This document shows positions 43,997 to 53,737 of a stretch of 64,000 bases of DNA, one piece after another (within the stretch, counting starts at the first letter, position 1; the number at the start of each line of letters is the position of its first letter). A program made the position numbers and the translations under genes. The notes under the pieces were generated by a model. That model was not told the DNA's origin, ran no database searches, and worked only from the letters and a program-made list of their open reading frames with translations. Source of the stretch: Polaribacter sp. (lineage in GTDB: Bacteria; Bacteroidota; Bacteroidia; Flavobacteriales; Flavobacteriaceae); the NCBI GenBank assembly GCA_028343155.1, contig JAOLXX010000001.1, positions 62,001-126,000 of the forward strand, in the 5' to 3' direction.

Positions 43997-44222
43997 TTAA
44001 TAGTATTCGAAATCAGGTTCCTTCATCACAATTTTATAAGAACTATCAGGTTGCACAACGATTAGTGTAGTTAGTGCTTTTTTAATAGTTTACATAAAAT
44101 TAGCCTGAATAACAGTTTCTAATACGTTACTAAAACAATGTTTTGCAATTGTAAAATCAGGAGCTCCTGATGATCCAGTTTTTGCAACCGGTATTTTCAC
44201 TATTGGAAACCCGCTAAACAGG
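43997..44222 (-). pseudogene. Antisense coding remnant with internal stop
   Basis: On the minus strand one frame reads PIVKIPVAKTGSSGAPDF...TIAKHCFSNVLETVIQANFM, then a stop, then ALTTLIVVQPDSSYKIVMKE...EYY and a second stop. The residue composition is that of a real protein, but there is no start, the frame is interrupted and the fragment ends abruptly at about 44222 against the plus-strand HTH ORF. I do not recognise the family. It is probably debris at the left edge of the accessory region. Confidence 0.4.
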
Positions 44223-44405
44223 TTGACAATTTCTGACGAGGACACCGAATATTTAACCCGAAATGAAGTCTCTAAGGTTTTAAACGTAACAGTCCAAATA
44301 TTGAATAACAGGAGAAGAGAAGGTGTTTTAAATTTACTAAAAATAGGTGGCAGGGTGTTGTATCGAAAAGAGGATGTTTATAACAACTCACGACTGGTTG
44401 CGTGA
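44223..44405 (+). CDS. Excisionase/MerR-like helix-turn-helix fragment
   Basis: A 60-residue ORF starting at TTG with the wing-HTH pattern EYLTRNEVSKVLNVTVQILNNRRREG...KIGGRVLYRKEDV, as in the DNA-binding domain of excisionases and similar small regulators (HTH_17 type). It has no ATG, its open frame extends upstream into sequence that also reads as antisense coding debris, and it lacks the N-terminal part usually present. It is likely the C-terminal remainder of a regulator, perhaps from an integrated element. Confidence 0.5.
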   Translation: MTISDEDTEYLTRNEVSKVLNVTVQILNNRRREGVLNLLKIGGRVLYRKEDVYNNSRLVA

Positions 44406-44406
44406 G

Positions 44407-44436
44407 TTGTTAATTAAAGTTTTATAATTATATTTG
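44407..44436 (+). promoter_or_regulatory. Promoter TTG-N19-TATATTTG for the T9SS adhesin gene
   Basis: A near-ideal Bacteroidota promoter: TTG at 44407-44409 and TATATTTG at 44429-44436. Transcription would begin near 44443, which supports translation from ATG 44516 rather than the ATG at 44447. Confidence 0.65.
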
Positions 44437-44515
44437 TAACAAATAAATGAGCATATTTTATTTTTCAAACTCTTTAGTTTGTTTTTTTAAACCACTTTTT
44501 AAATCACTCATAAAT

Positions 44516-47500
44516 ATGTTTACCCAAAATTATAAAATTCTTTTTTTTTTACTAGCTTATACCGGGTTTGTAAATGCTCAACAGAGTATTGTTACAGAAA
44601 GTTTACAAGTGTATTTGGATGCAGGAAATGTTTCTTCATATTCCGGTACTGGTTCCACTTGGACAGATTTAACAGGAAACGGTCACAATGGAACACTAGT
44701 AAATAACCCTACCTATTCAAGTTTAAGAGCTGGATCTATCTATACAAATGGAACGAATAGTTATATTTATACAAATCAAATTCCGGGCACAGGAAATAGT
44801 TTACAGCCTTTAGTATTAGAAGTTTGGGTAAGTCCAAGTAATAGTAGTAATGGAAACATTGTTATGATGTCTAATACACAGCCTGAAGCTCATTGGAATA
44901 TGCCCCCAATTACTTCAGAAGGAGGTAGATTTAAGGCACTTATGTGGGGAGGGGAGAAATTATCCGACAATGCTGATTTTATTCCAGGGGAATGGTATCA
45001 TTTATTACTAGCCTGGAATCCCTCCACGCATACACAATCTTTTTATGTAAATGGTGTTTTAAAGGATTCACAAAGTTCTGTTAACTATTCTACAGACGGT
45101 GTTGACCACTACATGTATTTGGCTCAGGCAAATAGTGGCGCTAATAATCAAGGGTATTTTGAGGGGAAATACGGTAAGTTTAGAGTTTATACAAAAGCAC
45201 ATACTGCTTCAGAGGTTCTTCAGAATTATGAGGCTGAAGTTGCCTCTTTTTCTGGAAATATTACAATTGTAACTTCTGGCGGTGATTCTGAAAATGGTAC
45301 TTGGAAGTATGATAACAATGAAATTTTTACTACGTCTTCAAACGCAGAAATTAATGTTGCAGATATAGAAACACATCTTGCTGCAGGGCCGCTTACTATA
45401 ACTGCAAATGAAATTGTCTTTAATACTTCAGCAGCTATAGATGGTGTTGGAAATACGTTAAGTCTAAATTCAAAAACACACATATCAAATACACAGGCAA
45501 CAGTAATAAATACTAATGGGGGTAATCTTGTTTTTGCAGCAAACATTGATGATGCAACAGATTCAGAGAGTACTGTAAATGGCAATATTTCTTTTAGAAA
45601 TGGATTAACGGTATCTACGCAAGGTGGAGATATTACTTTTGGAGGAGGAAACACTCTAGGCACTGAGCATGCTATGGGAATTGCTACTGCCAATAGTTTA
45701 TATAATGAAGGAGTAAGAATAGATGTTACTTTAAACTTAAATTCATCAGGAGGGGATATAGTTATCAAAGGAAAATCTGCTAATACTAGTATTTCTTCTT
45801 CAGGGACTGGTGCATCTGGTGTTGGAGTATATGCTTTAAGTGCTCCTGCATTTATAGAAAGTGGTACAGGAACCATTTTCATAGAAGGTATTTGTCAAAA
45901 CATAGAAAAAACAGATTATACAGCTGGTGTGATTTTTGCATTAAACAACAACCACACAACTACTATAAAATCTTCAAATACCACTTCTAGTGCAATTCAG
46001 TTGAACGGGATTTCAATTCAAGATAAATATAATATTTATGGTATAGACGTTGCAGCTAACTCTCCTTTAACCCTTTTGGCAGATGCAGATGGAGGTGGAG
46101 TTTTATTAAAAACTGCTATTGGTTATGATTGGGCTGATTATACTACCTATCCAAGGTATGAAGCGATGTTTAGATCTGAGTTAAATGTCTTGGCAAAGAG
46201 TGGGCCTATATCTATATTGGGAGGTCAGTTTGAAGGTGAAAATAAAGGGCGTATTAAATTTGAAGTATCCCCTTACATTGGTTCTAAATCTGGTTCAGAG
46301 ATTACTACTAGTTCAAGTGATATTAATTTACAATATGATGAATTTAAATGGGGTAGTAATGATCCTCTTTTTGCAACTTCAGGTGTTGTTTCAATTAAAC
46401 CAACCACAGATTGGTCCCATTATCTTGGTTATGTCGCTACTTCTTGGTTTGGGTTTAATCAAAATAACCATATAATGTCTGGATTAGTTATAGGTAGTGC
46501 TGCAAATTTAAGTGATATTTATATTAATTCAACTCTACTGGGTAATGGTTCTATCTCTATATATGGTAGCGCAATTGATGTGACTTCAGACATAACAACT
46601 ACAAATGGAGATATTCTTTTAGATGCTGATAATGGTACTGCAATTTCTATGAATGATGACGGTGTATATGTTGGCCCGAATGTGACGCTAAAAACCCAGA
46701 CATCTGGGGATATCTATATTTATGGTCGAAGTGGAAATGCTAATTCGGGTGGTCAAGTAGGGATCTCAACCGCTGGAGCTGATGGGGCTATAAATATTAC
46801 TTCTGCTGGAAATATTACCATGCTAGGGATTTCTGAGTCGGCAAGTAGTAATGGAGCTAGGGGAACTTATTTTAATACAACCTCAATGTCAGCTGTTGGA
46901 GATGTCACAATTTTAGGGCAAGGTTTAAATGATGGTAATGATTATGATATTTCTTTTCAAAACTCCACTATAGATGCTGGTGGTAAGATAACCTTAGATG
47001 CCAAAAATGGAGGGCGAATTAATTTTTCAGCTACTAATACCCTAACTGCAGTTGGAGATCAAGAATATATTGCTGATAAGATTGGTATTAGTGCTGGATC
47101 AATAAACACGATCAATGGTTCAGGGGCTTTTTTATATATGCCAGATTCAGACAGTACTTCTTTTAGTGAAGATGTTAATTTAAGTTCAATTTCTTTTGGT
47201 AGTTCTCTTACAGGCTTTAGTATCGGTGATTCACAAAACACTACAAATGTCACAGTCGGAGCTCTTGATTTACAAGGGCCTATTTCTTTGTATGGGACGG
47301 ATATTGAGTTTAGTAGTACGGTAGTCAGTTCGGATTTAATCAATGCTAATGGAAATCTTAACATTACATCATCAGGATCACTAACATTAAATAGTAACGC
47401 TGCGATGACCGTAACCGGTAATCTTACCAACAATTCAGGAAGTCCTGTCACTATGAACAGTAGTTCTTCTATGATTGTTTCTGGGAGTTCTTCCGGCGAG

Positions 47501-48781
47501 ATTACATATAACAGAACCCTAGCTACAGATAATTGGTACCTCGTATCGAGTCCAGTAGCAGGCGAAACAATGGAAGACCTGATAACAAATAATACCTTTG
47601 CAACCGGATCAAGTTCTAATATTGGAGTGGCACCCTATGCAAATAACGGTACAGCTTGGAATTATCAAACCACAGCAGCTACAGGTAGCTTAGCCTCAGG
47701 AACCGGATACTCCGTAAAGTTAGCATCCCCAGGAGACATTGCCTTTACTGGCACCATACCAGTTACCGATGTCGGAATCGCAATTACGACAGATACCAAT
47801 GGATATAATCTGATCGGAAATCCGTACCCATCGTATCTCCCAGCAAATTTAAATGCAGATGGGACTCATAATATTCTAAAAGTAAACGATACAGACAATG
47901 ATTTCTTAACAGAAGCAACCCTTTGGCTTTGGAATGAGACGACCAGCACTTACGATGAAATCAATCATACATCGGATGCGCTTTTTCTTGCACCAGGACA
48001 AGGATTCTTCGTAAAATCGAACGGGTCCAATACCTTTAGCTTTACAGAAGCCATGCAATCTCACCAAACAACAGACCAATTTCAAAGACCCGTAGCACGT
48101 CCAGAAATTAATTTGATACTGACCCATGAAACCAATACGAGTGATACCGATATTTTCTACATCGATGGCACAACCGAAGGATGGGACAATGGTTATGACA
48201 GCACCCTCTTTGGAGGTACCGCCAATAACTTTGCCATCTATACCCATTTAGTTAGTGACAGCCAAGGACAGGATCTAGGGATTCAGTCGCTGCCAAATAC
48301 TAATTTTAAAAACAGGGTAATTCCCGTCGGAGTCAACGCTTCAGCAGGAACCACCATCACCATAGCAGCAGCAACCCAAAACTTACCCGAAGATGTAGAA
48401 GTATATCTAGAAGACAGAGAAGCAGGTTCCCTTACATTACTAGAAACAGACGAAAATTATACCATTACGCTTTCAGAAGCACTAAATGGCATTGGACGTT
48501 TTTACCTCTACACAAGTGCCCAAGTTCTCCTTATTGATGATGTAGCTATGGATGCAATTAGTATCTATACCTTCAATAATAATCACTTAAAAGTAGTAGG
48601 AGTTCATGATGGAGCCGCAAAAGTAACTGTTTACAACATACTAGGAAAACAAATTTATACTACCTCTTTTCAAGGAAACGGGGTCAATGAATTCTCTTTG
48701 GCAATGATTTCCTCTGGCGTGTATATTATCGAGTTAGATACAGCGATTGGTAGGTTGAATAAAAAAATAATTATCGAATAG
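44516..48781 (+). CDS. Large T9SS-secreted adhesin with LamG domain and type A sorting domain
   Basis: A surface or secreted protein of about 1,421 residues from ATG 44516, whose signal peptide is ILFFLLAYTGFVNAQ. An N-terminal LamG/concanavalin-like domain (about residues 20-235; VYLDAGNVSSYSGTGSTW, GNGHNGTL) is followed by a long Gly/Asn/Ser-rich stretch of GDI/GNIT-type beta repeats resembling filamentous-haemagglutinin helices (about 235-980). A conserved C-terminal module comes next (NWYLVSSPV, GYNLIGNPYPSY, APGQGFFVKSNG). The last 75 residues are the Por/T9SS type A sorting domain (KVTVYNILGKQIYTT, SGVYIIEL). The start at 44447 is possible but adds an unlikely N-terminus. Confidence 0.88.
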   Translation: MFTQNYKILFFLLAYTGFVNAQQSIVTESLQVYLDAGNVSSYSGTGSTWTDLTGNGHNGTLVNNPTYSSLRAGSIYTNGTNSYIYTNQIPGTGNSLQPLVLEVWVSPSNSSNGNIVMMSNTQPEAHWNMPPITSEGGRFKALMWGGEKLSDNADFIPGEWYHLLLAWNPSTHTQSFYVNGVLKDSQSSVNYSTDGVDHYMYLAQANSGANNQGYFEGKYGKFRVYTKAHTASEVLQNYEAEVASFSGNITIVTSGGDSENGTWKYDNNEIFTTSSNAEINVADIETHLAAGPLTITANEIVFNTSAAIDGVGNTLSLNSKTHISNTQATVINTNGGNLVFAANIDDATDSESTVNGNISFRNGLTVSTQGGDITFGGGNTLGTEHAMGIATANSLYNEGVRIDVTLNLNSSGGDIVIKGKSANTSISSSGTGASGVGVYALSAPAFIESGTGTIFIEGICQNIEKTDYTAGVIFALNNNHTTTIKSSNTTSSAIQLNGISIQDKYNIYGIDVAANSPLTLLADADGGGVLLKTAIGYDWADYTTYPRYEAMFRSELNVLAKSGPISILGGQFEGENKGRIKFEVSPYIGSKSGSEITTSSSDINLQYDEFKWGSNDPLFATSGVVSIKPTTDWSHYLGYVATSWFGFNQNNHIMSGLVIGSAANLSDIYINSTLLGNGSISIYGSAIDVTSDITTTNGDILLDADNGTAISMNDDGVYVGPNVTLKTQTSGDIYIYGRSGNANSGGQVGISTAGADGAINITSAGNITMLGISESASSNGARGTYFNTTSMSAVGDVTILGQGLNDGNDYDISFQNSTIDAGGKITLDAKNGGRINFSATNTLTAVGDQEYIADKIGISAGSINTINGSGAFLYMPDSDSTSFSEDVNLSSISFGSSLTGFSIGDSQNTTNVTVGALDLQGPISLYGTDIEFSSTVVSSDLINANGNLNITSSGSLTLNSNAAMTVTGNLTNNSGSPVTMNSSSSMIVSGSSSGEITYNRTLATDNWYLVSSPVAGETMEDLITNNTFATGSSSNIGVAPYANNGTAWNYQTTAATGSLASGTGYSVKLASPGDIAFTGTIPVTDVGIAITTDTNGYNLIGNPYPSYLPANLNADGTHNILKVNDTDNDFLTEATLWLWNETTSTYDEINHTSDALFLAPGQGFFVKSNGSNTFSFTEAMQSHQTTDQFQRPVARPEINLILTHETNTSDTDIFYIDGTTEGWDNGYDSTLFGGTANNFAIYTHLVSDSQGQDLGIQSLPNTNFKNRVIPVGVNASAGTTITIAAATQNLPEDVEVYLEDREAGSLTLLETDENYTITLSEALNGIGRFYLYTSAQVLLIDDVAMDAISIYTFNNNHLKVVGVHDGAAKVTVYNILGKQIYTTSFQGNGVNEFSLAMISSGVYIIELDTAIGRLNKKIIIE

Positions 48782-48799
48782 TAGAAAGCCCAAAAGAAT

Positions 48800-48971
48800 A
48801 TGAAAAACACTACTAAACATAGCGTACAAAATATTTCACGAAAAGAGGCCCCAAAAAAAGATGGGTTCATTTGGGAAATATGCAGCTCTTACAGCTATAG
48901 GTACCTATACCTTATTAAGCCCTCAAAAAGCACAGGCAGCAAGCCCGGAAGCTCCAGGAAGTGGGTTTTGA
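48800..48971 (+). pseudogene. Frameshifted small leader-like peptide gene
   Basis: ATG 48800 opens MKNTTKHSVQNISRKEAPKK. A change of frame inside the CCCCAAAAAAAG tract would continue MGSFGKYAALTAIGTYTL and end LSPQKAQAASPEAPGSGF. In the shifted frame the product is about 57 residues: charged N-terminus, hydrophobic core, AQA-type cleavage-like site and a short Gly/Pro tail. One more A (8 instead of 7) restores the frame. I associate RKEALKK...KYAALTA...KAQA small proteins with Flavobacteriia accessory loci (memory, not a search). The unshifted frame gives a 58-residue nonsense-like product. Confidence 0.55.
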
Positions 48972-49104
48972 ATTAAGAAGCACTTACAATTTAGACCAAA
49001 GATATTCTTCAGAGAAACCTCCTCAAAAGGAGTCCGATCTTAAAAGTATATGGGGTATTGGAAAAGTGAAATATGCTGAGGTTTTTGGCGTTTTTTATAA
49101 TTAA
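48952..49104 (+). pseudogene. Remnant resembling an HRDC-type domain
   Basis: An open stretch without a start reads LQEVGFELRSTYNLDQ, then KESDLKSIWGIGKVKYAEVFG. The last part resembles the HRDC domain of RecQ-like helicases (LKxIxGxGKxKxEKYG). It overlaps the end of the small peptide gene in another frame, so it is a fragment left by recombination rather than an intact gene. Confidence 0.35.
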
Positions 49105-49156
49105 AAAAAAATACCGGACATATACACTTATAAGTTAGTATTAGAAATTTTTGTAA

Positions 49157-49407
49157 GTACTAAAAATTGATATTCTAAAATTTATTGAACAGTATATTGC
49201 AAGTGTAAATGTTGATATTATATTAGACAGGTTCAGTATATCTTATCGAAAACTCAATAAAATATTAGGCAATAGTCCAGGAAAAGTGATAGCGTCAAAA
49301 AGAAAAGTTATAGCACAAAATTTAATAAAAAAAATAAATATTTAGAAGAAATAGCTTTATTTAGTGGGTATTCTATTTCTTATTTAAAAAAAACTATTAA
49401 AAATTAA
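49157..49407 (+). pseudogene. Decayed AraC-type HTH regulator fragment
   Basis: Frame 1 (to the stop at 49345) reads ILDRFSISYRKLNKILGNSP then KVIASKRKVIAQNLIKK. A shifted frame (49342-49407) continues LEEIALFSGYSISYLKKTIK. Together they are the two helix-turn-helix units of an AraC C-terminal domain, broken by a frameshift in an A-rich tract. There is no start codon and no effector domain. Between here and 49613 there is further low-complexity coding-like debris (FDLPQLLQGSFTDKNQF before a stop near 49600). Confidence 0.6.
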
Positions 49408-49613
49408 CTAGCTTTCCTTATATCTAACTAAAGATATTATTAAAATTAATACTTTAGATCTTATGTTAGAACAATCTTATGGTGCAACTAATATCAATCC
49501 TTTAAATTAGCGTTTAGTGTAATTAGTAAAGTCAAGCATCAAAAATTTGATCTCCCACAGTTACTTCAAGGTAGTTTCACAGATAAAAACCAGTTTTAAT
49601 GACTCAAATTCTT

Positions 49614-49621
49614 TAACTTTG
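49614..49621 (+). promoter_or_regulatory. Bacteroidota -7 box TAACTTTG
   Basis: An exact TAnnTTTG match 22 bases ahead of the PqqD/HprK-like gene. Confidence 0.5.
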
Positions 49622-49643
49622 TTAAAGATTTAATTAACCATAT

Positions 49644-50774
49644 ATGAGTAGTCCATTACTTACTAAAACTATCGAAGATAAAAGATATCTTTGGTTGGAG
49701 GGAACCAATCAATATGTGGTATTGGAACACGAAGCCTTTAGTGTTGTAGAGAAACTTATTAATGGGGTATTACCAAAGACGATTGCAACAGATCTTGAAA
49801 CAACATTATCGGTTCCATTTGAAGCGGCTCTAAAGTTTGTAAAAGAGTTAAAAGAACGGGTTTTAAATTCATCCATAACCGTTCAAGAGAAAAGTATCAT
49901 CGAATTATCAAAGGTTACAATTCCAAGTAACTTTGAGATTATAACTACCTATCGAGTAAACAGTACGCTTATAAAAGTTTCGTATAAAGGTGATTTAGAA
50001 GCTTCTTATATTCATCCTAAATTTGCACACTTAGAAACTGAAACAGCTAATAAAGAAACCGATTTTAAGATTTTTATAGCAAATGATAAAATCTATTTAG
50101 CAATTAACAATAAAGTAAAGTACGGATGGTCTAAGGAAGAAATTCATTATTTTCAAGGGAAGTTTTCTATGGAGTTTATACAAGCAATGTATCATAAAGA
50201 GGAATCTGAATGGATGGGTGTTTTTCACGCATCAGCAGTAAGCAACCAACAAAAGGCAGTACTTTTTTTAGGTGACTCGGGAAATGGTAAAAGTACTTCG
50301 TTGGCACTTCTTCAGAAACACGGATTTCAGTGTTTGGCTGATGATTTTGTGCCAGTTGCAGCTACAAATAAAGAAGTATATCACTTTCCTGCAGCCATTT
50401 CTGTTAAAAACAGTAGTTTACAAACATTAGCACCCTTGTATCCTTTATTAAATGATACAAAGGAATATCATTTAAAAAGATTGAATAAGAGAGTTCGTTA
50501 TTTACCGCCAAATTATACAGATACTCAAACCCACCTTGCTTGCAAGGATTTGGTATTTATAAAATACCAAAAAGACGTTGCATTATCATTTTCTAAAATA
50601 TCTAAACAAAAGGCTTTCGAGCAGTTGGTACCTGATTCTTGGTTATCTCCAAAAAAAGAGAACGCTGCTACTTTTTTAGAGTGGTTTGCTACATTAAACT
50701 GCTATCAAATCACCTATTCACAAACTAATGAAATGGTAGCATCAGTTTCTAAAATATTTAATGATGACGTATAA
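49644..50774 (+). CDS. PqqD-like (RRE) / HPr-kinase-like fusion protein
   Basis: A 376-residue soluble protein. Residues about 5-75 (YLWLEGTNQYVVLEHEAFSV, LPKTIATDLETTL, FVKELKERVL) look like a PqqD-type recognition element. The C-terminal half has a P-loop LGDSGNGKSTSLALL (about residue 211) followed by CLADDFVPV, the Walker A and DDF pattern of HPr Ser kinases and their relatives. Such kinase-like proteins occur in ribosomal-peptide clusters. It has its own promoter box. Neighbours are the T9SS adhesin and the small frameshifted peptide upstream; the substrate is unknown. Confidence 0.7.
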   Translation: MSSPLLTKTIEDKRYLWLEGTNQYVVLEHEAFSVVEKLINGVLPKTIATDLETTLSVPFEAALKFVKELKERVLNSSITVQEKSIIELSKVTIPSNFEIITTYRVNSTLIKVSYKGDLEASYIHPKFAHLETETANKETDFKIFIANDKIYLAINNKVKYGWSKEEIHYFQGKFSMEFIQAMYHKEESEWMGVFHASAVSNQQKAVLFLGDSGNGKSTSLALLQKHGFQCLADDFVPVAATNKEVYHFPAAISVKNSSLQTLAPLYPLLNDTKEYHLKRLNKRVRYLPPNYTDTQTHLACKDLVFIKYQKDVALSFSKISKQKAFEQLVPDSWLSPKKENAATFLEWFATLNCYQITYSQTNEMVASVSKIFNDDV

Positions 50775-50783
50775 AGAAACGTT

Positions 50784-50819
50784 TTACTTTGTGGCAAAAT
50801 GTTTTATTCTTTGTTTCAT
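50784..50819 (-). pseudogene. Truncated copy of the small zinc-ribbon gene start
   Basis: Minus-strand ATG AAA CAA AGA ATA AAA CAT encodes MKQRIKHFATK before a stop. The intact gene at 53510 begins MKQRIKHCAICK. This 36-base stub, next to a 112-bp repeat shared with the intact copy, is the decayed end of a duplicated segment. Confidence 0.6.
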
Positions 50820-50875
50820 AGGTTACTTAAGTCATTAATAACTTAATTTTTGGAGATTAATAAAACCAATTTCCA

Positions 50876-50987
50876 GTTATCTTTTTATATCTCCCGAGCA
50901 ACCTTTGGAGCAACTCTAAGAACCAAAAAACCCGTAAATCATTGTTTATAAATGAGTTACGGGATAATTTTGTGGTACCTCCAGGAA
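50876..50987. repeat. Left copy of 112-bp tRNA-Phe-adjacent direct repeat (att-like)
   Basis: Matches 53568-53679 without gaps and with about four mismatches; 50921-50987 is identical for 67 bp. It contains the tRNA-Phe terminator hairpin and the last 15 or so bases of tRNA-Phe (minus strand), i.e. a displaced tRNA 3' end as left by site-specific integration. Confidence 0.85.
50896..50915. promoter_or_regulatory. Paired GAGCAACC/GAGCAACT boxes (candidate integrase arm sites, left)
   Basis: Two near-identical 8-mers, 12 bp apart start to start, just outside the 67-bp identical core. Confidence 0.5.
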
Positions 50988-51111
50988 GTTTTAGGTTTTA
51001 CTTCATTTCATGTGTTTTCATATAAGTATATGAAAATCAATAGTATAATGACTAAATCATGATAAAAAAGTAAAGAGAAATCAAACCAAATAACAAGGAT
51101 TTAAACCTGCG

Positions 51112-51131
51112 GAGCAACCTCTCGAGCAACC
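51112..51131. promoter_or_regulatory. Paired GAGCAACC boxes upstream of the integrase gene
   Basis: Two exact GAGCAACC copies, again 12 bp apart, about 46 bases before the integrase start codon. They are candidate arm-type binding sites. The gap 50988-51177 holds nothing else recognisable. Confidence 0.5.
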
Positions 51132-51177
51132 GGTATTCTCGCCATATCTTAGCCTTAGTCATCAAAATTTAAGAAAT

Positions 51178-52059
51178 ATGTATAAGGTTCTAAAATCCTC
51201 AAAGGCAGCAATTCGATTTAGTCTAAAACATTCCAAGAAGCATTTGTCATCAAATTTGTATAAAGAAAGTTTAATTGTTTTATGGTTCTCCTTCGGAGGT
51301 GCAGACAAACGAGTAAGTTATTCAACTGGTTATACAGTTTCTTATGTAGACTGGGATTATCAAAAACAACGTGTTAAAACCAATAAATCAAGAGTTATTA
51401 ATTCTCATACCGTCAATAACTACTTAAATAGGTTGGAGACAGAATTAATGAATCAATACAGTCGATTTATAGATGAAGAAATACCAATCACAAAAGAATT
51501 AATAAAGGAAACTCTTGATATAATTTCAGGAAAAATAGTTCCAGTAGAAGAGCAAGAAACAGTTCCTGTTGATTTTTTTAAGTTCTCAGAAAATTATCTC
51601 CACCAAAAGAAAGATAGAATAGAGAAACCAACATTTACTTTGTACAAAGGAACCTTAACAAAATTGAAGAAATATGCACGAATAAGAAAAGTTACAGTTG
51701 ATTTTAGTTCGTTTAACAAAACCTTTTTAGATGATTTTAGACAGTTTTTAGAGAATCAAGAGAATCTTGCTTTAAATACAGTATCAAAACACTTTAAGAA
51801 TCTTAAAATGTTTGTGATTGAAGCCAAGAACCAAGGTCTTATATCCAATCCACCTTTAAAATATTTTAAAGTATCAACAGAGGAAACCACCAAAATTTAT
51901 TTAACAGATTCTGAAATTGAAAAAATGTTGAAACTGGATCTGTCTTATAACAAGAGATTGGATATAAGACCTTGGTTCTTGGTTTCATTTATTTCATCAA
52001 TAATTCTTACAACTTTCACTATCTCAGCATCATCACCAAAGACTTCATCAATTCCTTAA
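51178..52059 (+). pseudogene. Truncated tyrosine recombinase (integrase) lacking the catalytic domain
   Basis: The first about 265 residues follow Bacteroidota site-specific integrases: an arm-binding N-terminal domain (VLWFSFGGADKRVSYSTGY, VDWDYQKQRVK) and a SAM-like core-binding domain (about 120-230; FSENYLHQKKDRI, LDDFRQFLEN, NTVSKHFKNLKMFV). It continues to the linker KIYLTDSEIEKML and stops just before the first catalytic Arg box. The last about 24 residues are unrelated; the opposite strand there reads GIDEVFGDDAEIVKVVRII, a fragment of another gene. The R-H-R-Y residues are absent, so it cannot recombine DNA. Confidence 0.85.
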
Positions 52060-52191
52060 TCATTTAAGTCAGTGAAAGGTGATTCAAACAAAATTTAGTT
52101 ATATTTGAAATCGGTTAGTTAATTATAGTTATATTTAATTTTCAAAAAGCAGAAAAGAAGCAGCCACAAAATAATTCCTCAATTAAAAAAA

Positions 52192-53217
52192 ATGAAAAGA
52201 ATCTGTTTATTATCATTGTTATTTATACCCTTAATTTCTTTTGCACAAATCACCTTATCCCCAAAAGATGACTTAGGAAGAACCTTAGCTAAAAATAAAT
52301 ATGGAAAAATCATTGCTATTGGTGAAAAAGACTTTTTAGGTAATTTTGTTTGGAAAGACCCTGCTGGTAACATTATTAAAAAGGAAACTGTAGATTTTTT
52401 AGGAAGAACCTTATCAAGAGATGATAAAGGGAAAGTGATTTCAACAAAGGAGAGAAATTTTATGGGAGATGTTGAGGAAAAGGATCCTCAGGGAAATTTA
52501 ATAGCAAAATATCGAACTAATTTTATGGGTGAAGTAGAGAAATTAGACGCTTATGGAAGAATTATTGGAAAATATAGGTCATCTTTTTCTGGAGATATAG
52601 TGTATAGTGAAAATACTAATTATAGATCTGAGACTTCTGAAAACAAAAAAGGGAGCTATAGTAACCCTAAAGTAATTACTCCTGTTTATTCCAAACCTTA
52701 TCAGTTTAGTGAAGAATATTATGAGGCAATGGGTGCAATATTGGCAAAAACTCTAACGGGTTTTGGTTTATATGCAGGTTATAACGAAGGGTTTAATTTG
52801 GGGATTGACGTTTGGTTAGGGAAAAAAGCAAGTTATGGGATACATTATGGAACCACTGATATTCAAGATAGTGATGGTTATGGGATTAATACCCGAGAGG
52901 AGTTTGCTCTTAATTTAGGTTTTTATATAACTAAAAAGAAAAATTTAATTTTAAAAACAAGTTGGGGTTATACTAATTTAGACCTTAATTATGATGAATA
53001 TCCAGACTTAGGGCAACAAACTTTTGAACAATGGGAGGAAGGTTATAATAGATGGGCAGACAAAGCTTATACAAAATTTTACTATAAAGTTGGAATTCAA
53101 TTTGCATTGAGTAAGAAAAATAAGGGTAGCGGATTCTCACCTGAAATATATTATTCAACTAATGGTATTGGTTTTGGTTTAGGATATATTATTAATGTAA
53201 AAAACTCTAACTATTAA
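52192..53217 (+). CDS. Outer membrane protein with 22-23-residue N-terminal repeats
   Basis: An exported protein of 341 residues (signal LLSLLFIPLISFAQ). Residues about 25-140 hold five to six repeats with the pattern DFLGRTLxxDxxGKVI (DDLGRTLAKNKYGKII, KDFLGNFVWKDPAGNII, NFMGDVEEKDPQGNLI, NFMGEVEKLDAYGRII). The C-terminal half (about 190-341) is beta-barrel-like (GFGLYAGYNEGFNLGIDVWLG, GIGFGLGYII). Similar repeats are seen in small Bacteroidota surface proteins, but I cannot name a function. It is cargo between the att-like repeats. Confidence 0.65.
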   Translation: MKRICLLSLLFIPLISFAQITLSPKDDLGRTLAKNKYGKIIAIGEKDFLGNFVWKDPAGNIIKKETVDFLGRTLSRDDKGKVISTKERNFMGDVEEKDPQGNLIAKYRTNFMGEVEKLDAYGRIIGKYRSSFSGDIVYSENTNYRSETSENKKGSYSNPKVITPVYSKPYQFSEEYYEAMGAILAKTLTGFGLYAGYNEGFNLGIDVWLGKKASYGIHYGTTDIQDSDGYGINTREEFALNLGFYITKKKNLILKTSWGYTNLDLNYDEYPDLGQQTFEQWEEGYNRWADKAYTKFYYKVGIQFALSKKNKGSGFSPEIYYSTNGIGFGLGYIINVKNSNY

Positions 53218-53342
53218 AATTTAATAGTTAGCTCTGATGTGAAGTTCCAATTCAACTATTTTAATGTTTTTTTAAATTTATTAACCTAACTAAAGGTGTC
53301 CTTTTTTTTAGGGTGCAAGTAAATTACTTCGGTTAATAATGT

Positions 53343-53510
53343 TTAAGCTTTCCAAGTTCCTCCATATTTGTAGTCAGAATTGTCTTTTTTAACATTTATA
53401 AGACACTCTTTACAGACAAACACCCATTCTTTTGGGTTTTTATATTGCACTCGGTACATCGTAGAGAAATCGACTTTACAAATGGCACAATGTTTAATTC
53501 GTTGTTTCAT
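53343..53510 (-). CDS. Small CxxC/CxxC zinc-ribbon-like protein (55 aa)
   Basis: An ORF too short for the track: MKQRIKHCAICKVDFST at the start, then NPKEWVFVCKECLI and GGTWKA at the end. Two CxxC pairs spaced about 24 residues apart are a typical zinc ribbon. The protein type (YRVQYKNPKEW...C..CL...YGGTWK) is familiar from Flavobacteriia. It lies about 155 bases downstream of tRNA-Phe on the same strand. A truncated duplicate of its first codons is at 50784-50819. Confidence 0.75.
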   Translation of the reverse strand: MKQRIKHCAICKVDFSTMYRVQYKNPKEWVFVCKECLINVKKDNSDYKYGGTWKA

Positions 53511-53567
53511 AATTCACTTAAGTCATTAGTAACTTAACTTTTGTAATACAAATATAACCCCTTTCCC

Positions 53568-53679
53568 GTTATCTTTTTATACCTTTCGAGCAACCTTTGG
53601 AGCAACTCTAAAAACCAAAAAACCCGTAAATCATTGTTTATAAATGAGTTACGGGATAATTTTGTGGTACCTCCAGGAA
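53568..53679. repeat. Right copy of 112-bp direct repeat, overlapping tRNA-Phe (att-like)
   Basis: Partner of 50876-50987; 53613-53679 is the 67-bp identical block and enters the tRNA-Phe gene by about 15 bases. GAGCAACC (53588) and GAGCAACT (53600) again lie 12 bp apart at its outer edge. Confidence 0.85.
53611..53655 (-). terminator. Terminator of tRNA-Phe
   Basis: On the minus strand CCCGTAACTCAT / ATGATTTACGGG forms the stem and is followed by TTTTTTGG. The same hairpin is duplicated at 50919-50963. Confidence 0.75.
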
Positions 53680-53737
53680 TCGAACCAGGGACACAAGGAT
53701 TTTCAGTCCTTTGCTCTACCAACTGAGCTAAGGTACC
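53665..53737 (-). tRNA. tRNA-Phe (GAA)
   Basis: A 73-base cloverleaf on the minus strand: acceptor GGTACCT/AGGTACC, D-arm GCTCAGTTGGTAGAGC, anticodon arm AAGGA-CTGAAAA-TCCTT with anticodon GAA, T-arm with GGTTCGATTCC. CCA is not encoded. Its 3' end is the integration site of the neighbouring island. Confidence 0.97.

Follow-up and report, generated by a model that had tools for sequence, protein, structure and literature searches.

Stacked integrative elements at the tRNA-Phe gene of Polaribacter

Two adjacent units beside tRNA-Phe

The window (the whole stretch of 64,000 nucleotides analysed here) lies in a Polaribacter MAG (G000) of 1.92 Mb, 48 contigs, and 81% completeness, and carries a tRNA-Phe (GAA) gene on the minus strand at positions 53664–53737, as located by ARAGORN. 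An earlier note on this DNA had described 67-bp identical direct repeats at the locus, and positions 50921–50987 and 53613–53679 do agree at 67 of 67 bases and both terminate in the tRNA-Phe 3′ end, but the extent of the repeat had to be revised. The attachment core itself, GTGGTACCTCCAGGAA, measures only ~16 bp (~20 at most) and is found at 50972–50987 (plus strand), at the junction of an older and a newer unit, where it is identical to the tRNA-Phe 3′ end, and again at 53664–53679, within the tRNA gene. The remainder of the 67 bp consists of a conserved element right end and a terminator-like hairpin, which are the same in some units of other genomes, so that the 67/67 identity does not imply a recent event. 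The duplicated stretch is also longer than 67 bp, since an element right end of ~195 bp stands ahead of each core copy (50792–50987 and 53483–53679, 89% identical). The arm motif within the repeat had zero matches in shuffled sequence.

The newer unit (50988–53679, 2692 bp) consists, in order, of a left end, a truncated tyrosine integrase, an orphan cargo gene, a zinc-ribbon gene, and a right end. The left end (50988–51177, plus strand) is 90–94% identical to left ends in the relatives G014 and G023 and contains the arm pair GGAGCAACCTCTCGAGCAAC at 51111–51130, with the core 126 bp upstream in a fixed geometry. The integrase gene (51178–52059, plus strand), which belongs to the int1 subfamily, is truncated as the earlier note had claimed; it retains residues 1–270 of 433, 86% identical to the intact int1 of G023, with the arm-binding and SAM-like domains present (Phage_int_SAM_5, E 7e-15) and the catalytic domain, PF00589 in the intact relative, lost. 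Homology to the intact integrase ends at a 32-bp inverted repeat (51819–51850 and 51956–51987, spanning 51819–51987, 97% complementary), where the reading frame leaves that of its homologs and which could reflect a rearrangement or a misassembly. The cargo gene (52192–53217, plus strand) encodes, by translation, 341 aa with a signal-peptide-like N-terminus; its earlier designation as an OMP gene is not borne out, as it has no Pfam or PADLOC match and no homolog among 59 relatives. The zinc-ribbon-like gene (53343–53510, minus strand; 55 aa with two CxxC pairs in translation) shares 91–93% DNA identity with stretches in G014 and in two G023 units; in a subgroup of units it forms part of the conserved right end. 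The right end (53511–53663, plus strand) holds an arm pair at 53587–53606 and a hairpin, CCCGTAA...TTACGGG, at 53623–53655, which would act as the tRNA-Phe terminator.

The DNA left of the first core had been read as part of an older, related element, and this reading is upheld by a left end at 44184–44410 and a right end at 50792–50987. In the left-end remnant (44184–44410, plus strand), the end of the left arm is fused to an excisionase-like HTH_17 gene (44223–44405; E 1.4e-4, below the gathering score), and the integrase gene and left core are gone; the same stretch directly follows the core and left arm in G023 units, to which it is 88–89% identical. A search for a third core left of 44.5 kb, as proposed in the earlier note, gave only chance-level partial matches in the window. 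The full extent of the older unit (about 44184–50987) rests on homology because its left core is lost. Its cargo includes a gene (44447–48781, plus strand) for a 1444-aa secreted protein with a C-terminal type IX sorting tail (Por_Secre_tail, E 5.7e-5, just under the gathering score), the C-terminal part of which is 65% identical to a protein carried by a G023 unit, and an HprK-like kinase gene (49644–50774, plus strand; weak Hpr_kinase_C match), in a region with 97.4% DNA identity over 1161 bp to the G023 element E1, against 71–83% for aligned chromosome. The kinase gene runs into a deletion scar at 50792–50804, a 13-bp near-identity (TGGCAAAATGTTT/TGGCACAATGTTT) recognised from overlapping alignments with the junctions side by side, which fuses the start of a nucleotidyltransferase gene to the start of a zinc-ribbon gene. 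The genes between the scar points are intact in G023, including an NTP_transf_5 gene, and absent from the window. The leftward similarity noticed earlier does reach a zinc-ribbon ORF start, of which the left copy keeps the first codons only and the intact copy is that at 53343–53510. The right end and core of the older unit (50792–50987, plus strand) are 92–93% identical to right ends in G014 and G023, and the right arm repeat pair CGAGCAACCTTTGGAGCAAC (50895–50914, plus strand), none of which is expected in shuffles, lies 57 bp from the core. Deletions later shortened the older unit from either side. As a side observation, an HprK-like kinase beside an NTP_transf_5 nucleotidyltransferase forms a cargo pair (G023, L035:12657–14964; window, 49644–50774).

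Repeats of this kind could also arise by plain segmental duplication of the tRNA-Phe 3′ flank with no integration, the alternative raised in the earlier note, which is favoured by the 67 identical bases and by a similarity that exceeds any short att core. With the tRNA part set aside, the left copy of the right end shares 95% identity with two G023 right ends and only 89% with its neighbour in the window, so that the pair did not arise by duplication in place; the nearest relative of the right copy (93%) is a third copy, on contig C19 of the window genome. The two right ends therefore represent different lineages and, together with a relative bearing eight cores in the same orientation, bear out the claim of at least two stacked integrations. 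The right end on C19 (L004:3743–3898) stops at ..TTTTGTGG and is followed by GTGGAGCCAAAGGGAGTAAAATCGAAC rather than the tRNA-Phe core; its border resembles either what is left of a different tRNA's 3′ end or a secondary site of integration.

Empty and filled tRNA-Phe sites

The same ends were sought in 168 Polaribacter genomes with few candidates scored per genome, for which reason the counts are lower bounds: the right end occurs in at least 25 of the 168, the left end in at least 19, and full-length int1 in at least 5. The right end directly abuts tRNA-Phe in about 19 genomes, and every tRNA gene found at arm-pattern loci of Flavobacteriales (17/17) is tRNA-Phe. Downstream of tRNA-Phe, coaX and an omp gene are syntenic in nearly all relatives checked, and the opposite side is variable. 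Tandem tRNA-Phe genes, in two or three copies ~100–140 bp apart, were also seen beside coaX in G002, G003, G008, G017, G018, and G036 (L028, L030–L034).

Empty sites, which the earlier note had proposed to look for, are present in relatives, and their sequence parts from that of filled sites precisely where the core lies. The distance from rluB to tRNA-Phe is 50 bp in G001 and 39 bp in G010, as against about 83 kb in G023, 108 kb in G142, 67 kb in G085, 49 kb in G168, and 44 kb in G188. The order is rluB, terminator, core, and tRNA in G001 and G010, and rluB, terminator, core, and the left end of an int2 element in G014. Similarly, L097 has LysR, terminator, core, a 1.7-kb unit, and tRNA-Phe, where other relatives have LysR, terminator, and tRNA. 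Judged from sequence, the G014 and L097 junctions are attL sites, departing from the empty sites exactly at the core. The attL of G014 and the single, clean insertion seen in L097 suffice to refute segmental duplication; with the same ends surrounding different cargo in many genomes, it is to be regarded as extremely improbable. A terminator left of a unit on G014 contig C8 had been considered as displaced native flank, and this was dropped because rluB and the native terminator lie on another contig, directly before a different element.

Stacking is most extensive in G023, in which the ~83 kb that separate the rluB terminator from tRNA-Phe contain eight cores in one orientation, delimiting seven core-to-core units, each with different cargo; an eighth unit may lie between rluB and the first core. 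Intact integrases are present in two of these units (int1, 433 aa; int2, 429 aa, 49% identical to int1), and the remaining units have no integrase or only its start. The single-contig MAG (C1) starts and ends within one array core (L041 end, L037 start) with 8 bp missing; the array appears to continue across the contig end inside this core, and the missing 8 bp mean that it may hold more units.

Taken together, tRNA-Phe in Polaribacter is very probably an integration site for small integrative elements that are stacked by site-specific tandem accretion. Core repeats mark the unit boundaries, with eight in G023 and two in the window; an integrase is encoded by at least some members, and decayed members keep both att sites. 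A Bacteroidota-type tyrosine integrase would join an element in circular form to the terminal 16 bp of tRNA-Phe by recombination. Each insertion would rebuild the tRNA 3′ end, supply a terminator through the right end of the element, and shift the previous unit one step outward, and repeated rounds would produce a head-to-tail array of units composed of core, left end, cargo, and right end. The window would then represent two rounds, the older unit at ~44184–50987 followed by the newer 2692-bp unit with its broken integrase. Against this explanation, the window genome is an incomplete MAG (81%), its left flank is a lolE-like gene where relatives have rluB or LysR, which calls for a later rearrangement, and no excised circle or empty allele was seen within one strain.

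Integrases, putative arm repeats, and movement between hosts

The integrases carry SAM_5 and PF00589 (tyrosine recombinase) domains, with an additional Arm-DNA-bind_5 domain in int2. The putative arm-site repeats are GAGCAACC for int1 and GCACACC for int2; a third subfamily, int3, was observed in G009, G115, and G108 (L134–L137), 43–46% identical to int1, with the tRNA-Phe core and TTAGCACCC-type repeats. Element ends thus differ in their repeats (GCGCACACC/GAGCACACC with int2, TTAGCACCC-type with int3) around the same tRNA-Phe core. The SGAGCAACCTYTSGAGCAAC pair lies at a core-fixed distance in 42 of 48 flavobacterial occurrences, 23 of them 57±1 bp before the core (one at 44) and 19 of them 126–127 bp after it, and near the core in none of 13 occurrences in other taxa and none of five in viral contigs, the latter being chance-like matches that were rejected. 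The GAGCAAC repeats are putative arm sites of the matching integrase, and on sequence grounds the pairing of arm repeat with integrase subfamily is specific.

Units have been transferred horizontally between hosts. For example, the copper-efflux and methyltransferase element of G023 has passed almost unaltered into other Polaribacter: its counterpart in G184 matches it at 97.7% across 13.3 kb, where the chromosome is 72.1% identical. E1 has a counterpart in G169 with 96.6% identity across 12.4 kb and the further flank at 67%. Integrase has been lost from most units. The integrase-deletion junction between the left arm and the HTH gene is common to five units in four genomes including the window, with different cargo, and a 1.7-kb dead-integrase unit of G023 recurs in L097 (CAJIYW010000003.1) with 98.7% identity across the 1729 bp that run from one core to the next, against 71.3% for the flanks. 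This identity and the shared deletion junction indicate that an integrase-less vehicle spread after the integrase was lost. In L097 the unit stands alone between the native terminator and tRNA-Phe, and no intact int1 relative was found in that genome, its sole int1 relative being this broken gene start, which contains a stop codon. Integrase-less units would probably be moved in trans, with a related element supplying an integrase able to recognise the same ends, and would pass between cells by some carrier; alternatively, they could have moved in cis, alongside a neighbour that has since disappeared. Contig CALSPC010000003.1 (L089, L091), titled uncultured Rhodobacteraceae, has a GC content of 27–34% in the fetched stretches and an int2 100% identical to that of Polaribacter, so its organism label is probably wrong.

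Exchange of units might instead proceed mainly by homologous recombination between resident ~195-bp right ends or left ends and not by integrase. The ends are sufficiently similar for this (85–95%), an intact integrase is missing from most arrays, and the similarity between G169 and G023 continues ~1 kb beyond the tRNA. Unit-free sites were, however, entered exactly at the 16-bp core (L097, the attL of G014), and a core of this length is too short for efficient homologous recombination; moreover, this core also serves int2 and int3 elements, whose ends are unrelated. Such exchange as the main route is accordingly improbable, and site-specific integration is preferred.

A similarly low probability is assigned to the units being remnants of prophages or of phage satellites packaged in helper virions. 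An integrase at one end, an excisionase-like HTH gene, and a tRNA target are typical satellite traits, and Pfam scans covering most proteins of the two G023 units with an intact integrase recognised neither a relaxase nor a conjugation protein (362- and 495-aa proteins unassigned). Against this reading, the scanned units contained nothing recognised as a capsid, terminase, or phage-like gene, the arm pair is never near the core in viral contigs, and a search of 50,697 phage records gave no close match to the integrase, with <40% identity among the matches listed. The nearest integrases of Bacteroidota plasmids are at most ~37% identical among the matches listed. The units, at 1.7–28 kb, were not classed as ICEs, no type IV secretion gene having been recognised among the scanned proteins.

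Relation to known accretion systems

That ICE/IME and CIME accumulate in tandem at a gene 3′ end is established for ICESt1-related elements (PMC5704250), and several likenesses to the Polaribacter arrays emerge: stacked elements have att sites in common where a conserved gene terminates at its 3′ end, attL and attR persist in decayed members that have lost the integration and transfer genes, and newcomers enter at the att site beside the target gene (PMC5704250). The Polaribacter units differ in that those examined have no recognised relaxase or conjugation gene and many are small (1.7–5 kb), and one integrase-less unit stands alone at a clean site in another host. In Dehalococcoides, many tandem islands with strain-specific cargo occupy ~100 kb downstream of one RNA gene, ssrA (PMC3146451). 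These islands are likewise separated by short direct repeats of the RNA gene 3′ end, and many are without an integration module; they employ a CcrB-like serine recombinase at tmRNA (PMC3146451), in contrast to the PF00589 tyrosine integrases at tRNA-Phe in Polaribacter.

Tycheposons and similar plankton tRNA islands, which PMC10872708 cites and extends, resemble the present units in being cargo islands of marine streamlined bacteria with a tRNA border and a tyrosine recombinase. Of the traits that mark tycheposons in Prochlorococcus, namely a tyrosine recombinase, a tRNA target, and a replication module, the first two occur here, and kinship is offered as a lead only. Similarly, NBU1, which targets tRNA-Leu and encodes a MobP relaxase, and the Riemerella 10K island at tRNA-Arg combine a Bacteroidota tyrosine integrase at a tRNA gene with excisionase-type accessory genes, and stacking of either was not seen in the excerpts of the two sources (PMC5704250, PMC6764341).

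Integrons also form one-orientation arrays of mobile recombinase-less gene units beside a fixed site. They are characterised by an IntI-type integrase, attI, and folded attC, whereas the Polaribacter system has a SAM_5 and PF00589 integrase and recombination at a double-stranded tRNA core, and its multi-gene units have their own orientation and long ends in place of folded attC. A tentative extension, held with more doubt than confidence, is that Polaribacter and its relatives possess a tRNA-anchored, integron-like platform, in which short integrase-less cassettes with standard ends (~150-bp left and right arms) would circulate singly between species, enter the tRNA-Phe site in trans wherever the cell has a matching integrase, and build up into ordered arrays, with int1, int2, and int3 as compatibility groups set by the arm repeats.

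No published account of the Polaribacter tRNA-Phe islands was found in the literature consulted; the process is known from CIME/IME accretion and the Dehalococcoides ssrA islands, and the Polaribacter element family appears to be undescribed. It adds both a new family and a new site, in marine Bacteroidota, and the evidence that single small integrase-less units travel is unusually clear. Polaribacter is a major bloom-responding marine bacterium, and one site explains the cross-species movement of copper efflux and DNA methyltransferase genes, secreted type IX proteins, and sugar-use genes. The defined ends provide a simple sequence signature for locating unit boundaries in genomes, and since each integrase subfamily goes with its own arm repeat, trans-mobilisation can be put to a direct test. 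The cargo of the G023 int2 element (L036:3466–8062, L041:1659–9862) comprises CusA/CusB-like efflux, haem-binding, DUF3347, resolvase, and DNA methyltransferase genes.
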